A stretch of DNA of 64,000 bases from Enterovibrio norvegicus DSM 15893 (lineage in GTDB: Bacteria; Pseudomonadota; Gammaproteobacteria; Enterobacterales; Vibrionaceae), in NCBI RefSeq assembly GCF_900115495.1, contig NZ_FOWR01000014.1:62001-126000 (forward strand), read 5' to 3'. Within the stretch, counting starts at the first letter, position 1, and the number at the start of each line of letters is the position of its first letter. Below the pieces are notes generated by a model that saw only the letters and a program-made list of their open reading frames with translations, was not told the origin of the DNA and searched no databases. Positions 5,501 through 13,796 of the stretch are shown piece by piece. Made by a program: the position numbers and the translations under genes.

Positions 5501-5654
5501 TTACTCCAGATTCAGACAAGAGTATGAAAACGGTATGAAATTAACGCGAGTATCTCACTTGGGGCAGAAAAAAACGGAATTAGGCTAGAGCACTTCGCAA
5601 GTAAGTAATACCATACGTGGAAATTACAAACCTAATCGTGAAAGGAATTTATTG

Positions 5655-5861
5655 ATGGCATTAGTCGCTTGCCCAACCTGTGAAAAACAAGTTTCTAAAC
5701 GTGCGCTTGCATGTCCTGGTTGCGGAGAACCTGATCCAGCGCGCTATCATTCTCGCAATACTTGGCTTGGCCGTCTTTTTTGGCTAGCTGTTTGGGCTGC
5801 AATTGGTGCGCTAGTTTGGATTAAAGTGGTTCCGCTTGTCATGGATGTATTCAAACAGTAA
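5655..5861 (+). CDS. zinc-ribbon membrane protein, small
   Basis: The 68-residue protein carries an N-terminal zinc ribbon (CPTC...CPGCG, residues about 7-26) and one C-terminal transmembrane helix (about 42-60). The ATG at 5655 is preferred over the in-frame TTG before it, because AAAGGA lies 8 bases upstream of the ATG. Proteins of this plan are common in Proteobacteria and have no settled function. Confidence 0.8.
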   Translation: MALVACPTCEKQVSKRALACPGCGEPDPARYHSRNTWLGRLFWLAVWAAIGALVWIKVVPLVMDVFKQ

Positions 5862-5887
5862 TTCATTCCAACAAACACTGTACGGAG

Positions 5888-5940
5888 GAGAAGAAACGGA
5901 GTCATTTTGCGCTTTCGCTTCTCCGTTTTCTCTTCTTCTT
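5888..5940 (+). terminator. probable terminator
   Basis: An interrupted inverted repeat (AACGGAG...CTCCGTT) is followed by a TC-rich, T-rich tract downstream of the zinc-ribbon membrane protein. It is less regular than the other terminators. Confidence 0.45.
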
Positions 5941-5995
5941 CATTTTTCTTCGTTAATCAGAATGCCATCTTCAACGCCAAAGACATGACTCCCTG

Positions 5996-6271
5996 TTACT
6001 GCAGGTTATCGTATCGTCTTGGTTGTTGATAAACGTCGTTATCTTGCCAATCTGTAATGCTAAGGTGAGTGAGCAACACACCAGGCGAACAATCTCCAAC
6101 CGCAATTTTATAGAAAATCAGTGCCGTTTCTTGATCACCGCCGAAACATTTTTGAATAGAACAGATCGCATTGTCTTTTTCTGTCCCTTCGTTCACTAGC
6201 TGGCGAACCCAGTCATACTCCATAGCGCCTTCGTTGATGATGGTTTTTCTTCCCAATGTGAATGCAGTCAT
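5996..6271 (-). CDS. hypothetical protein (91 aa)
   Basis: A 91-residue soluble acidic protein with no recognised domain. It has scattered cysteines (CSIQKCFGG; GDCSPG) and no signal or membrane segment. AAGGAA lies about 10 bases before the ATG, supporting translation. It stands alone on the minus strand, convergent with the gene to its left. Confidence 0.65.
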   Translation of the reverse strand: MTAFTLGRKTIINEGAMEYDWVRQLVNEGTEKDNAICSIQKCFGGDQETALIFYKIAVGDCSPGVLLTHLSITDWQDNDVYQQPRRYDNLQ

Positions 6272-6573
6272 CTTTCAGCTTCCTTATGAATATTAAAGAG
6301 TTGTCACAAAAACATTGATACGTTGATTAAAACGTAAAAGACCATGTATTAACTCGATTCACGTCGCAAAAGTATGCATATATTAGAGTATGGTATTCGC
6401 TAAAAAGTCATGAAAACGACGGTAAGTGCAGCGAAAAATGCATCGCATTGAACAAACACTGCAAATTGAGTCAAATTTTATAACTCATAACACAATTTTT
6501 TTAGTCCATTGGAGGATCAGCAATAAATCGGTGTTAGCCTGACCCGGTTCATTAGCCACATATCTCAAACACT
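6272..6573. other. divergent intergenic region
   Basis: AT-rich promoter region between two divergent hypothetical genes. No gene or strong palindrome was seen. Confidence 0.4.
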
Positions 6574-7062
6574 ATGAAATGGATTTTGTCGAACTGGCTT
6601 CGAAAGAAGAAATACGAAAAGTTCTTTGGTCGTGTGGAAGAGGATTTCTTCAAAAACGACAAGTACAGACCTTATATCGAAGAGAAGATCCTCGAATCAC
6701 TGCGAGATAGTCAAAACACCAAGCCCAAAAGGGCAGTGAAAATTGTGCTTGCGTGTATTCGTCAGTCGTTACTTGATAAGTATCTAAGCGAAAACCGCTA
6801 CATCCGCTTCTTAGAAGACAACAAGCAAGAATTCTTTGCAGCCAGCGAAGAAGGCACAGACGTTGCTCAAGGCTACGAGAAACTCATTCAAAACTTCATC
6901 CACAACAAGCAGATAGAATCTTCAGATTACATCGCTTCCCACCTCCCTAAATTCTACAGAAAGCTCGCCAAAGAGTTAGATGTCGATATCAATTACCCGA
7001 TGGGCGAGAAAGGCGAACAAGACATGCTGGACGACATCATCATGATCCTTAACAACAAATAG
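6574..7062 (+). CDS. hypothetical protein (162 aa), helical
   Basis: A charged protein (rich in K, E and D) that appears mostly alpha-helical, with no signal peptide, membrane helix or recognised motif. It has a basic N-terminus (KKKYEKFF) and an acidic C-terminus. The length and codon use look like a real gene, but no clear ribosome-binding site precedes the ATG. Function unknown. Confidence 0.65.
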   Translation: MKWILSNWLRKKKYEKFFGRVEEDFFKNDKYRPYIEEKILESLRDSQNTKPKRAVKIVLACIRQSLLDKYLSENRYIRFLEDNKQEFFAASEEGTDVAQGYEKLIQNFIHNKQIESSDYIASHLPKFYRKLAKELDVDINYPMGEKGEQDMLDDIIMILNNK

Positions 7063-9993: not shown

Positions 9994-10236
9994 ATGCATC
10001 CCATGCTTCGCGAGAAAATGTTGAAGGTGTGCCAACAGAAAATAGAGAAAAAAGGCGAGGGCGTGAATGTGTCCTTCTATGCTTTTTTTGCCAACAAGAA
10101 TGACAACCCTGAACGCCTCATGGAAGCTGCGACATGGTGGATACAAACGCACAAGCTCGACCACTTTGAAAAAGCCACCAAGATCTTGACCTTAGTAAGC
10201 GAAGACGTTTTCGTCCCCCTTTGCATAGATACGTGA
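9994..10236 (+). CDS. putative SOS-regulated protein (80 aa), unknown function
   Basis: An 80-residue soluble protein with a basic helical N-terminus (MLREKMLKVCQQKIEKKGEG) and a tryptophan pair (ATWWIQTHK). No family is recognised. AAGGAG lies 11 bases before the ATG, so translation is well supported. A LexA box 47 bases upstream predicts induction by DNA damage. A hairpin overlaps its stop codon (10235-10261). The gene is alone and ends 50 bases before the convergent cytochrome gene. It is a second unknown small gene with an SOS box in this window. Confidence 0.78.
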   Translation: MHPMLREKMLKVCQQKIEKKGEGVNVSFYAFFANKNDNPERLMEAATWWIQTHKLDHFEKATKILTLVSEDVFVPLCIDT

Positions 10237-10261
10237 AGCACGTCGCCCAGCAACGTGCTTC
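10235..10261. terminator. hairpin between convergent genes
   Basis: A 9-bp inverted repeat (GAAGCACGT/ACGTGCTTC) with a 9-base loop overlaps the stop of the 9994 gene. It lacks a T-run, so termination would be weak or dependent on other factors. Confidence 0.45.
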
Positions 10262-10286
10262 AGCAATCATGATTGCACAGGCATCA

Positions 10287-10799
10287 CTATTGAACCGGCA
10301 TCATGGGATATTGCGGGTCGACCACTTTCACAAAGCCGACCTTTTCCGCCACGTGACAAGCATTACACACCGCTTTTGTGGTTTCGAATGTTTCCCAAAT
10401 CTTCGCATCGTCTTTTGAATCAATGGCAGCCTGCATCACCTTCCACTGAGAATCGATAAACATGGCATCGGCATTCGCTTTGCGCGCAGGGCGACGCTCA
10501 GTGCCATTCACAATGGTTTTTTTGATCTTCTTCCATTGGTAGGTCGCCATGTCATAGTTCTGGTTTTTAAGCGCAAAGTAAAACGTGTTAAAGCGAGCGC
10601 CGGTTTCGAACATGGTCATGTCAAAGCCACGCATTTGTTTCTGCAGCACTTTAAAGCGTTCATCATTGGTTTCTTTATTCATCACCCAGTCATTTTGACC
10701 TTTGAATTGGGTCACGGTCGCAATGGCAGTAGCAGATGAGAGCAGAGCAGGGGTTAGCACTAAACTGACGCACAGGGCGCGTTTTAATATTGGCGACAT
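10287..10799 (-). CDS. periplasmic c-type cytochrome, single heme
   Basis: The 170-residue protein has a signal peptide (about residues 1-26) and one heme-attachment motif CNACH at C145-H149, near the C-terminus. A helical body before a C-terminal CXXCH resembles the class II/cytochrome c' layout, though assignment to c' is tentative. It should carry electrons in the periplasm. No partner enzyme is adjacent. Confidence 0.85.
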   Translation of the reverse strand: MSPILKRALCVSLVLTPALLSSATAIATVTQFKGQNDWVMNKETNDERFKVLQKQMRGFDMTMFETGARFNTFYFALKNQNYDMATYQWKKIKKTIVNGTERRPARKANADAMFIDSQWKVMQAAIDSKDDAKIWETFETTKAVCNACHVAEKVGFVKVVDPQYPMMPVQ

Positions 10800-11011
10800 T
10801 GTTCACCGTCCTTTTTATTGTGGTTGATTGAGCGCTGACAGGCTAACGCAACCAAGAAGACGAGGGATACAGTGAAAACAGGGGATTAGAACGGGAAAGC
10901 ACGAATAGAACATCATTCAATGTATCAATACCTACTGCGTCATAATGAGAAAGCGACATGACAGCGACAAATTATTGATACATAAGCCTTTAATTTTCAC
11001 AACTTTTGACA

Positions 11012-11043
11012 AGTGCGCATTAAATAAGGGTGTTATGGTAAAT
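11012..11043 (+). other. degenerate dif-like Xer site
   Basis: A perfect XerC arm (AGTGCGCATTA, 11012-11022) is followed by a 10-base spacer and an XerD-like arm TTATGGTAAAT (11033-11043, one mismatch to the TTATGTTAAAT arm of the canonical site at 12590). Normal dif sites have a 6-base centre, so this copy is probably a hybrid or mutated junction. It is in direct orientation with the dif at 12590. Confidence 0.6.
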
Positions 11044-11136
11044 ATGTAGGGAGCAAAAAGCAGTAATGTGTACCACAAAGAAAAGGGCGCACTGACACGG
11101 CTTAAAGCACGTGCTGCGCACCCAAATCGTTAAAGA

Positions 11137-11994
11137 TTACTTCTCGATGTCAGAAAGCAGATCTTTGTTAACCACAAGGTTTCTTACGCCGTGCGCGTGG
11201 TCTTCATCAAAATCATTGCCTTCACACCACTCACCAACGGTCGCGATGTTAACTTTGGCAATTTTAGGACGCACACTCCATGTCACCTGGAACGGCGAAC
11301 CTTCTTCGTTGTAACCCGGGCCCGTTGTTGAACCTGCATACTGAATAGGCTTACCTGTGTTGTTAGGAATGTTGATCGCCTGATGCACACCGTCTTTTTT
11401 CTCGTGCTCATTCAGTTCTTCAAAATCCAGCGCATCGGCATCATTCACTACCACGTAAACTTGGGTTTCTACGCGCAGTTGTGGGTTTTTGTTCGCATCG
11501 TTAAAGCATGAACCCAAAGTCGCGCCTGGTTCAACCTGTGCAGTGGTATGTACGTAGTGCACTTCAATGGTGTCACCCGGCTTTACGTCGCCATGTTTAC
11601 TTGGGCACATTTCGCCTTTCACCGGTGCCAGTTCAGCCGCCGTCAGTTGGCCTGAATACTTGAAGCCGCTTTGGTAACCATGACCATCGCCATTGCCCGC
11701 ATACTTGGTGAATTCACCGCCTTTGTGCTCAGCATTCTTGTGGAAGTGGATATTACACAAGTTCATCTCAGTGTATTTTGGCGCAGCATTAAACGTCAGC
11801 GTGTTGTTACCCGCCGCCGAATCAATGTCACGCGGAGATTGAGGACCAAAGCCTTCGCCTTCAGTGTTTTCTGCCAGCTCTTGACGCTGCTCCGCGATGA
11901 CTTTATCAGATACGGTCTCATGGCCGCTTTTTGCCATCGCACCAAAAGACGCGGAGACGGTGAATGCGATGATGCACAATTTGGTAGTTTTCAC
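11137..11994 (-). CDS. delta-class carbonic anhydrase, secreted
   Basis: The 285-residue protein has a signal peptide (about residues 1-22), the GFGPQSPRDI segment typical of delta-class carbonic anhydrases, and a CNIHFHKNAEHKG segment with C80, H83, H85 and H90, likely including the zinc ligands. It should interconvert CO2 and bicarbonate in the periplasm. Delta-class enzymes were first described in marine diatoms and dinoflagellates and are less common in bacteria. The gene lies alone between two dif-like sites, suggesting acquisition by Xer recombination. The class is recognised from memory of the family motifs. Confidence 0.82.
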   Translation of the reverse strand: MKTTKLCIIAFTVSASFGAMAKSGHETVSDKVIAEQRQELAENTEGEGFGPQSPRDIDSAAGNNTLTFNAAPKYTEMNLCNIHFHKNAEHKGGEFTKYAGNGDGHGYQSGFKYSGQLTAAELAPVKGEMCPSKHGDVKPGDTIEVHYVHTTAQVEPGATLGSCFNDANKNPQLRVETQVYVVVNDADALDFEELNEHEKKDGVHQAINIPNNTGKPIQYAGSTTGPGYNEEGSPFQVTWSVRPKIAKVNIATVGEWCEGNDFDEDHAHGVRNLVVNKDLLSDIEK

Positions 11995-12250
11995 TGGTTC
12001 ATTCCCTTATTCGTTGAAATCAGAGGGTCGGCACATAGAAATACGCAATGCTTTACGCGCCGATCGGCATTCACTAAGACTGCGAATACCCTTGAAGAGT
12101 AACGAATATTGGGCATTTTTTTCACCTCACTGTTAACAAAGTGCCACGTTTTCGAGGCCGAATCTCTCAATTGAATCACAACAACTCACACACACATTAT
12201 GCAACTGTGATGGGGCTTGAAGTTAATGTGGTGTTGATGCAACCCGATGA

Positions 12251-12433
12251 AGAAAGAGGGTGAGGGTATTGGATAGCTCGGGGCAGATCATCGCAGGAAA
12301 CATGACGGTTGGTGACAACGAAACACGTTGGCAGTTTACACCTGATGCGGTTCGGCGGCGCAATTGCCACGCTCGGCATGTTAGCGCTAGGTGCCTGGGA
12401 AACCATCCGCAACGAGAAAAAAGCCCGCAATAG
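12251..12433 (+). pseudogene. remnant of an Ig-like-domain protein (C-terminal fragment)
   Basis: An open stretch without a credible start encodes VLDSSGQIIAGNMTVGDN, then ETRWQFTPD and, degraded, CLGNHPQR. This matches the end of a bacterial Ig-like (SbsA/Big_5) domain pattern (VLD..G..I.G, W.F.P, LEDLAGN..R). The conserved central part is replaced by arginine-rich sequence, consistent with a decayed copy. The stop lies inside the terminator at 12418. It sits between the two dif-like sites. Confidence 0.45.
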
Positions 12434-12443
12434 CGGGCTTTTT
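12418..12443. terminator. bidirectional terminator between two gene remnants
   Basis: A perfect 11-bp stem (AAAAAGCCCGC/GCGGGCTTTTT) with an AATA loop and T-runs on both sides. Both flanking coding remnants end at it from opposite directions, as if an intact convergent gene pair once lay here. Confidence 0.88.
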
Positions 12444-12445
12444 AA

Positions 12446-12541
12446 TTACTTCAACTTATCCCGAATCGGTATCCACGGCGCAGGCTGTTGGCGCATGCCG
12501 CCACGGTAAACGGTGACAGGTTGAGCGTGAAAATAGGACAT
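12446..12541 (-). pseudogene. C-terminal remnant of an unknown minus-strand gene
   Basis: A 31-codon frame ends in VTVYRGGMRQQPAPWIPIRDK and stops just before the shared terminator. It reads like the tail of a protein and seems interrupted upstream by the AGGACATTTC repeats at 12535-12569. The parent protein is not recognised. Confidence 0.35.
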
Positions 12542-12582
12542 TTCTACTTTGCAGGAAACAGGACATTTCAAAATTGGACAGA
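12535..12582. repeat. direct repeats resembling an insertion-sequence end
   Basis: AGGACATTTC occurs at 12535-12544 and 12560-12569 (25 bases apart) and a partial copy (GGACA) at 12576. Multiple terminal direct repeats of this look are typical of IS21-type elements. No transposase remains, so this would be a relic end. It lies 8 bases from dif. Confidence 0.35.
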
Positions 12583-12589
12583 CTCCACA

Positions 12590-12617
12590 AGTGCGCATTA
12601 TCTATCTTATGTTAAAT
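12590..12617 (+). other. dif: dif site (XerC/XerD chromosome dimer resolution site)
   Basis: An 11-bp XerC arm (AGTGCGCATTA, 12590-12600), a 6-base centre (TCTATC, 12601-12606) and an 11-bp XerD arm (TTATGTTAAAT, 12607-12617). Both arms are identical to those I recall for Vibrio cholerae chromosome-1 dif; only the centre differs. XerCD would resolve chromosome dimers here under FtsK control. It marks the replication terminus, supported by the five matS sites to its right. Confidence 0.92.
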
Positions 12618-12707
12618 AAGATACGCAGGAGAATGAAATCTGCTTCCCTCGTGTTCGTAATCACCTTCTTTTGGTACACTTTTCTCTTGTTCTTCAATCT
12701 ATTGAAC

Positions 12708-12741
12708 GTAATTATCTATTTACCATAAAGTAGATAATTAC
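12708..12741. repeat. inverted repeat beside dif
   Basis: GTAATTATCTA (12708-12718) and TAGATAATTAC (12731-12741) form a perfect stem with a 12-base loop. No T-run follows, so it is not a standard terminator. Confidence 0.6.
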
Positions 12742-12915
12742 CATTCTACTAAGACGCCTGCCATGAAACGTGGTTTCCTGGGGCTTCTTCTTACTCTGGG
12801 AATTATTTAAGAGCGCGCGGATTTGAATCCTTTTAGGTAACGACATTGTTTTACGTTTTGTTGTTGCGTTTGATTCTGCACGAAGCACGACAATGCAATG
12901 CGGTTTGTCGTTGGT

Positions 12916-12988
12916 GTTGTTGAGCGCGAATGGCAGACTTCACATGAACCTTTGTCAGGTTATCCGTTAGGTTGTTGAGCGCGAATGG
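12916..12988 (+). repeat. 18-bp direct repeat
   Basis: GTTGTTGAGCGCGAATGG occurs at 12916-12933 and 12971-12988, 55 bases apart, in the non-coding DNA right of dif. Confidence 0.7.
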
Positions 12989-13211
12989 ATGATGGCCATA
13001 CCCGGATGGTGAGAACGAAAACCTTATCGGTTTTCACAGCGATACCATTTACGGTTTGTTGACTAAAACACAATGACAACCTGTGGAATCGTGACCTTTT
13101 ATCCAGATCCTAAACTTTTCAACTGCTCGCGCTTGTGGCACGTAATCATGGCGCTATATTCCACAATGGTCTAAATAATAACATATAGACATTAAGGGAA
13201 TAATAACGCGT

Positions 13212-13796
13212 ATGGATATCACTAAACCCTCGTCGCTGCCGCTTGTGCCGTTGTTTGATGCAGATTATCAGTTCACCTTTGATGAGCTTCTGGAGCAATT
13301 GGCACAGACGAAAAAGCCATTGTCATTGCCTAGCATTCGGTTTGTGCTTGAAAATCTCGCACTCGGTGACGAGCAGATCAGCACCCTGTCGAGTTTTACA
13401 TCCGATACTTACTGTCGTAAGCGATTGTTTAAAAACGAATGCTGCGAAATTTTGATTCTGAGTTGGCTTAATGGTCAACGCAGTAAAATTCATGATCACA
13501 AACATACGTCATGTGGCGTGCGTGTGCTAAATGGTGAAGCAACCGAAACCACCTTTGATACGGCTGCAAATGGCCATATCTACGCGACACAATCATCGTT
13601 ATTTGCAGAAGGTAGCGTTACGGCGAGTAAAGATAACGACATTCACCAAATATCCAACCTTCAATGTGACGACAAACCTTTGGTGACGCTGCACATCTAT
13701 TCACCACCATTGCATCAGTTCAATATCTACAGCCTAGAAGACGGCAAAGTGACACTGCTAGATATGCTCGAAGATTCATGGATTTACGAGATTTAA
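13212..13796 (+). CDS. cysteine dioxygenase type I family
   Basis: The 194-residue cupin-fold enzyme should oxidise L-cysteine (or a related thiol) to the sulfinate with non-heme iron. The three-histidine site is visible as H94 and H96 (IHDH) and H145 (IHQI). C101 and Y163 (LHIYSPP) align with Cys93 and Tyr157 of mammalian CDO, which form the thioether cofactor; many bacterial enzymes have glycine at the cysteine position. A substrate arginine is likely in the YCRKRL segment. AAGGGA lies 13 bases before the ATG. It is a single gene following the dif region. Confidence 0.88.
   Translation: MDITKPSSLPLVPLFDADYQFTFDELLEQLAQTKKPLSLPSIRFVLENLALGDEQISTLSSFTSDTYCRKRLFKNECCEILILSWLNGQRSKIHDHKHTSCGVRVLNGEATETTFDTAANGHIYATQSSLFAEGSVTASKDNDIHQISNLQCDDKPLVTLHIYSPPLHQFNIYSLEDGKVTLLDMLEDSWIYEI

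Follow-up and report, generated by a model that had tools for sequence, protein, structure and literature searches.

What accompanies the dif2 site of Enterovibrio norvegicus DSM 15893, and does the DNA around it belong to an integrated element or to dif itself? The question was raised by a window of 64,000 nucleotides (contig NZ_FOWR01000014.1, positions 62,001 to 126,000; G000:C28:62001-126000 in our numbering, genome G000 comprising 5.45 Mb in 99 contigs), in which an earlier note had recognised two directly repeated dif-like sites on either side of a carbonic anhydrase gene and had proposed that they bound the remains of a single element integrated by XerC and XerD. A third dif-like site, overlooked in that note, stands inverted on the XerD side of dif2. 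This companion is part of a module whose arrangement, one-sidedness, spread and spacing pattern were observed across genomes, along with a frequent, not universal, near identity between the two chromosomes of a genome.

An inverted companion on the XerD side of dif

dif2 consists of the XerC arm AGTGCGCATTA, the centre TCTATC and the XerD arm TTATGTTAAAT (equalled in 0/100 shuffles). The left site reads AGTGCGCATTA-AATAAGGGTG-TTATGGTAAAT; its XerC arm agrees at 11/11 positions and its XerD arm at 10/11, around a centre of 10 nt (again 0/100 shuffles), and it forms a direct repeat with dif2 at a spacing of 1.55 kb. Within the genome, the pattern GTGCGCATTA-N4-14-TTATG[G/T]TAAAT was matched by these two sites only; dif1, on contig C37, falls outside it through a T in its XerC arm. 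Both sites are real, beyond chance, and the altered XerD arm of the left one was confirmed. The C37 site has the centre TGTATA, and those genomes of the genus with two dif sites mostly have one TGTATA and one TCTATC centre; from these centres we read the former as dif1 and the latter as dif2, in keeping with the chromosomal dif1 and dif2 of Vibrio, which have the same 28-bp core and distinct 6-bp centres.

When dif sites of the genus were aligned, conservation was found chiefly on the XerD side, with the core TATTTACCATAAA-TA-ATAATT. The opposite strand of this core is itself dif-like, with an XerC-like arm, a 6-bp centre and the XerD arm TTATGGTAAAT, the same arm that ends the left site and also the XerD arm of the plasmid Xer site cer. 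In the window the arm recurs in the third, inverted site, followed by the centre TCTACT (6 bp) and the degenerate XerC arm AATGGTAATTA (Table). The invariance of the companion XerD arm is built in because that arm was searched for exactly; other positions, which played no part in the selection, are nevertheless conserved across the fetched members of the family, namely TA and a closing T within the centre and T-G and ATTA within the XerC-like arm. Among 40 loci chosen mainly by their match to dif, the exact arm was present in 34 and the other six had nothing at up to 2 mismatches, with no intermediates. In the fetched family loci a looser second XerD-like arm often lies behind the companion, and the 11-6-11 layout was found in all genera fetched except for the locus of family f12 (L185), whose companion is without an XerC-like arm. 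In two loci (L159 in G164, L167 in G206) the XerD arm of dif itself is of the companion type, TTATGGTAAAT, as though the companion had converted it. The aligned modules were also inspected for gaps inverted through recombination, and none was seen.

Features of the window around dif2 (coordinates are those of the window)
Feature	Position	Strand	Remarks
dif2	12590-12617	+	XerC arm 12590-12600, centre TCTATC 12601-12606, XerD arm 12607-12617
Module gap, 100 bp	12618-12717		drifts between species; often alike for dif1 and dif2 of one genome (identity here 0.67)
Second XerD-like arm, TTACGTTCAAT	12701-12711	-	adjoins companion; weaker conservation, variable spacing; putative Xer arm
Companion	12718-12745	-	dif-like, inverted, on the XerD side of dif at a distance of 100 bp; XerD arm 12718-12728, XerC arm 12735-12745
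Tail, ~60 bp	12746-12805		partly common to dif1 and dif2 modules (identity here 0.80)
Left site	11012-11043	+	dif-like, 10-nt centre, XerD arm of companion type
DUF6500 gene	9994-10236	+	usual neighbour of carbonic anhydrase
Insertion (cytochrome-like gene and left site)	approx. 10240-11090		confined to G000 and G002; edges placed to within tens of bases
Cytochrome c-like protein, 170 aa	10287-10799	-	C-x-x-C-H motif only; no Pfam match
Delta carbonic anhydrase	11137-11994	-	PF10563, 1e-84; apparently an old neighbour of dif2
Ig-like (Big_5) gene remnant	12266-12356	+	matches part of a gene intact in G002; like gene intact in G003
DUF3653 gene remnant	12416-12507	-	relatives encode DUF3653 phage protein
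Probable end of dif-targeting (IS1202-like) insertion sequence	12525-12584		weak resemblance

The two-arm pattern TTATGTTAAAT-N74-104-ATTTACCATAA was matched in 224/329 Vibrionaceae genomes and in its reversed form in none; with N104-134 it was matched in 65/329, of which 33 were new, giving by hand count a union of 257/329, a figure for pattern matches with exact arms, wherever in the genome these lie. Many of these genomes contained two matches. In the fetched loci 97/104 dif sites have the companion, and the arm was found at 0/104 in direct orientation or, on the XerC side, in either orientation; these loci were partly fetched since they matched a dif, flank or companion pattern, and the figure of 257/329 is the less biased. 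Four loci were left out of the 104: L044 (an interrupted dif without companion), L184 (XerC arm too diverged), L203 (cut at a contig end) and L215 (the same site as L133). Order-wide, in 295 genomes and with gaps of 74-104, 28 genomes had a match, distributed (per family by hand) over 19/23 genomes of the own family, 7/11 of family f2, 2/22 of f12 and 0/239 others; the f2 genomes had one match each, at dif, with gaps of 80 or 100. Carriers include Vibrio metschnikovii, V. injensis, V. fujianensis and V. cincinnatiensis, Photobacterium aquae, P. lutimaris and P. pectinilyticum, Veronia nyctiphanis and Veronia pacifica, and Salinivibrio proteolyticus. A candidate V. cholerae dif2 string was matched in 0/329 genomes.

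Other collections gave further matches. The plasmid collection returned one 36-bp match in one search and 603 records in another, the matches listed being dif cores; the two Vibrionaceae chromids inspected there both have the companion. In named genomes the companion core was matched in 37 stretches. The three from outside Vibrionales (L068, L071, L096) are probably chance, because no dif XerD arm was found in the preceding 170 bases. Viral contigs gave two matches to the companion core, one without a dif (L104) and one at a prophage locus (L105). Conserved DNA on one side of the core, which marks an Xer site with accessory sequence, was found next to dif.

Spacing of the module and its likeness between chromosomes

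Gap lengths were gathered by hand for 243 sites in 148 genomes among the matches listed, two f12 matches and one contig-end duplicate (G060) being omitted, and the statistics take sites and genera as they stand, with no tree correction. The lengths peak near 79, 89-90, 100 and 111-112 and rise again, less strongly, at 118-122; 236/243 lie between 77 and 123 bp. The strongest period in the 6-25 bp range was 10.6 bp (R 0.52), the maximum of a jittered null being 0.26 in 5000 draws; without genus g10, R was 0.75 at 10.5 bp in the first list of 132 sites. In genomes with two listed sites the two gaps differ by 0-1 bp in 33/89 cases, by 10-11 bp in 18/89 and otherwise in the rest. Helically phased spacing, a second mark of an accessory Xer site, was therefore present by site and weak once collapsed by genus.

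In 30 genomes with both modules, the identity of the gap between chromosomes had a median of 0.91. The flank on the XerC side showed 0.51 (shuffled, 0.50), the 60 bp past the companion 0.76, and the DNA further out 0.52; the dif centres differed in 30/30 pairs. Gap identity was at least 0.85 in 22/30 pairs, made up of 8/11 from the own genus, which were fetched before the likeness was noticed, 12/13 picked after gap strings, many of them alike, had been seen in the match lists (G021, G023, G065, G069, G073, G075, G078, G125, G137, G143, G191, G252, G255) and 2/6 others. The XerC side was unlike in 24/30 pairs, and in the other six (G063, G066, G075, G125, G137, G143) it too was alike (0.84-1.0). 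With the gap alike in 22/30 and the XerC side unlike in 24/30, the module is therefore often, not always, common to both chromosomes. Identity within a genome exceeded that with the best other genome in 20/30 pairs (own genus, 5/11), E. norvegicus DSM 15893 being an exception at 0.67 within versus 0.84 with the best other genome. The sharing probably came about by gene conversion, during which the dif centres would have been held apart.

Some genomes show rearranged surroundings. In G015 and G005 (L048, L059, L044, L045), genes usual beside a TCTATC dif adjoin one whose centre is TGTATA or TTTATA; G015 also has genes usual beside dif1 next to a TCTATC site. It looks as though the chromosomes had exchanged arms or centres. 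In Enterovibrio norvegicus FF-33 both dif sites lie on one 3.23-Mb contig (L049 and L051; G013:C38, at 1.51 Mb and 98.6 kb), one of them with the hybrid centre TGTATC; the contig is either a fused chromosome or a misassembly.

A predicted accessory site and its alternatives

We reasoned that dif2 bears a widespread accessory module on its XerD side, in which the companion is a predicted Xer accessory site for dif; judged from sequence comparison, we hold this to be about evenly balanced between right and wrong. The module begins with dif; a gap follows, mostly of 77-123 bp and with a preference for whole helical turns, and beyond it stands the inverted degenerate companion with TTATGGTAAAT, in many cases joined by a further XerD-like arm. 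In this reading the companion would be bound by XerD, alone or together with XerC, and a short phased loop would bring it back against XerCD at dif; the resulting cis complex could gate or assist recombination at dif, for example by holding dif until FtsK comes from that side. A more elaborate version seems doubtful to us: a two-site switch that would gate dimer resolution and shield dif1 and dif2 from each other and from phages that use dif, with attP of CTX-type phages a stolen copy and the module exchanged between chromosomes while the centres are kept apart.

In the best-studied cases a chromosomal dif is described as dependent on FtsK and independent of accessory DNA in its flanks. The plasmid sites cer and psi have an Xer core with about 180-200 bp of accessory DNA, according to the accessible text of PMC5357621 and PMC2533119. 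The module resembles them in having accessory DNA that adjoins an Xer core, and differs in that the accessory DNA of cer binds ArgR and PepA whereas that of the window looks like a second Xer site. No earlier report of the companion was found in a literature search that reached few subscription papers and preprints.

Several observations weigh against an accessory role. In the available parts of PMC2533119, dif1 and dif2 of V. cholerae were activated by FtsK in an E. coli reconstitution, and its authors reported no motif in the flanks that was conserved among different Vibrio species, whereas here an inverted companion was found in most of the family. The exact pattern is missing from 72/329 genomes, and six dif sites lack a companion even at 2 mismatches. 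When the gap lengths were collapsed to 89 genus-by-gap values, the periodicity was weak (best period 10.1, R 0.24, p 0.016), and the gaps of genus g10 are mostly 81-88, off phase. Finally, module identity between chromosomes is low in 8/30 pairs, among them that of the window's own genome.

The nearest known geometry is the inverted pair of CTXphi, and a phage scar is therefore a rival to be weighed: the companion would have been left by a CTX-type filamentous phage, the end of whose prophage leaves dif, about 90 bp and a second site. We judge this unlikely. As described in the accessible portion of PMC4246890, attP of CTXphi is composed of attP1 and attP2, dif-like sites that face each other in inverted orientation across about 90 bp; one has a centre of 5-7 bp, and attP1 has an over-long one. 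The module is likewise an inverted dif-like pair, with a gap of 100 bp in the window; unlike attP, it is chromosomal, both its centres are 6 bp and one of its sites is a canonical dif. The long (12 bp) centre of CTX-type attP is absent from both module sites; the separate left site has 10 nt. Phages do come to this place: DUF3653 phage-protein genes or their remnants lie left of dif in the genus, and in an IMG/VR contig (L105, 2044-9842) a filamentous prophage abuts dif on the XerC side. Its genes include some resembling those of M13 proteins I and IV, one for rolling-circle replication and one for a regulator, the reading frame of which stops within dif. In L105, however, the module lies beyond the phage genes and so outside the phage, on a sequence that stops short of the phage's far end. 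From dif rightward, companion included, L105 is identical to G108 at 298/300 positions, whereas the left 300 bases are unrelated (82/300); the companion is therefore present with or without the phage, and our estimate for a scar was lowered slightly on this account. Among 50,697 phage records none matched beyond the dif core at E<=1, and no companion-type arm was found in the end pieces of two Vibrio filamentous phages; an origin of the companion in phage, as sought by sequence, was set aside, only dif cores having matched in the phage records. Moreover, the sites are kept while the gap drifts, in the second family too. Copying may have gone in the reverse direction, to phage attP from the host module.

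A separate case is found in G007 (L037, G007:C95, about 147.0-154.1 kb), where a 6.87-kb Lamassu-type (ABC-3C) defence set of LmuA, LmuB and LmuC lies inside the dif2 module, flanked by direct repeats of ~106 bp that run from inside the dif XerD arm to inside the companion XerD arm. The module can therefore serve as an integration place, whether by Xer or by homologous recombination.

Likewise improbable, in our estimation, is that the companion binds some other protein and owes its likeness to dif to an AT-rich palindrome. In much of the genus the site does lie within an inverted repeat of 11 bp, which in the window reads GTAATTATCTA...TAGATAATTAC, and the XerC-like arm is degenerate; the palindrome, however, is not found family-wide, whereas the 11-6-11 layout is, among the fetched genera, wanting only at the f12 locus. 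Still less probable is a landing or decoy site for XerD apart from recombination, such as for the unloading of SMC or MukBEF at the terminus. XerD-mediated unloading of SMC at dif in B. subtilis is cited in the accessible part of PMC13342612, but such a site would by itself leave the inversion and the helical spacing unexplained, and the Vibrionaceae case is putative.

The carbonic anhydrase gene and the eroded DNA left of dif2

The DNA between the left site and dif2 had been taken for one shrunken Xer-integrated block with the carbonic anhydrase as its cargo. The enzyme is of the delta class, as stated, and the gene is present in 11/17 relatives, with a partial match in a 12th (G017); the compared genomes include species of Enterovibrio, Grimontia, Vibrio, Photobacterium and Veronia. 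In 9 of the 11 (G002, G003, G004, G005, G007, G009, G010, G011, G015) its place is beside a dif site, 0.3-5.1 kb from it on the XerC side, and the adjoining dif has a TCTATC centre in 7/9, the others being TTTATA (G005) and TGTATA (G015). The common gene order is ACT-domain gene, DUF6500, (glyoxalase), carbonic anhydrase, dif. In G013 the gene is ~307 kb from dif2, and the contig of G012 is too short to place it relative to dif.

Of the nine relatives with the gene beside dif, only the nearest, G002 (Enterovibrio baiacu), has the left site. In six of the remainder (G003, G004, G007, G009, G010, G011) neither the cytochrome-like gene nor the left site had a match between glyoxalase/DUF6500 and carbonic anhydrase, and matching DNA picks up again at the end of the carbonic anhydrase gene, at 11137 or just inside it. 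Nor did the empty-site comparison that had been suggested, a relative with one dif and no block, favour integration: relatives without the gene beside dif do occur (G008, G013, G014), and they are also without the left site. Because the gene sits beside dif in relatives that have no left site, the two sites are not the ends of a single element. The direct repetition of the dif-like sites, and a left centre over-long like that of CTXphi attP1, would suit the cargo proposal, which we consider very improbable and which synteny, with eight of nine relatives lacking the left site, largely refutes. On the evidence of gene order the carbonic anhydrase appears to have long stood next to dif2, on its XerC side, and not to be the cargo of an integrated element; it may have arrived there earlier by an old Xer event. 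Of the earlier note's reading, then, the two sites and the gene scraps stand, and the single block joining them is not supported.

The left site lies within ~95 bp of the right edge of an insertion of ~0.8 kb that also carries the cytochrome-like gene. That gene adjoins dif2 in G000 and G002, and its relatives stand left of dif1 in G009 and G010; DNA of the dif1 side therefore has a copy at dif2. In G002 the centre of the left site is 11 nt against 10 nt in the window, which the earlier note also missed, and a scan for centres of 4-20 nt in the relatives' loci (L035-L066) found an over-long-centre left site in G002 only. Given its place near the edge and its over-long centre, the left site may be an Xer scar of this smaller insertion.

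To the right of the carbonic anhydrase, the broken genes noticed before proved to be Ig-like (Big_5) and DUF3653 remnants. G002 and G003 have two intact genes (412 and 364-372 aa) between carbonic anhydrase and dif2 where the window has scraps. The DUF3653 remnant matches DNA that in G002 likewise stands left of dif2, and the frame 12446-12598 (minus strand) clusters with a 142-aa DUF3653 phage protein encoded left of dif1 in relatives. Between the two sites no replication gene or intact phage gene was found, only remnants, the DUF3653 scrap included. No known RNA family reached gathering score in 10900-13250; the matches below that score, at 12343-12509, surround a terminator.

The DNA just left of dif2 weakly resembles the same place in L037 and the end of an insertion sequence (IS) in L048, and is probably the end of a dif-targeting IS. 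The L048 IS (5539-6882) encodes a 447-aa transposase and lies 5 bp from the dif XerC arm with a 5-bp duplication, CCTTA; in L059 a matching left IS end was not found. Members of the IS1202 family target dif, inserting at a distance of 5 bp from its XerC arm and duplicating 5 bp, as stated in the accessible part of PMC10132070. The L048 IS agrees with them in both respects and has terminal repeats, the kinship of its transposase being judged by length and Pfam domains only, whereas the window has a probable end only. The genes near dif are eroded by IS and phage insertions, a matter separate from the companion module.

If an accessory role of the companion is true, a control layer has been overlooked, in the form of a second, Xer-like site, conserved, one-sided and phased, that many Vibrionaceae have next to dif on both chromosomes. 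CTX-type phages could have derived their inverted attP pair from such a module, which would also exemplify two chromosomes exchanging sequence frequently, with dif as the limit of the exchange.
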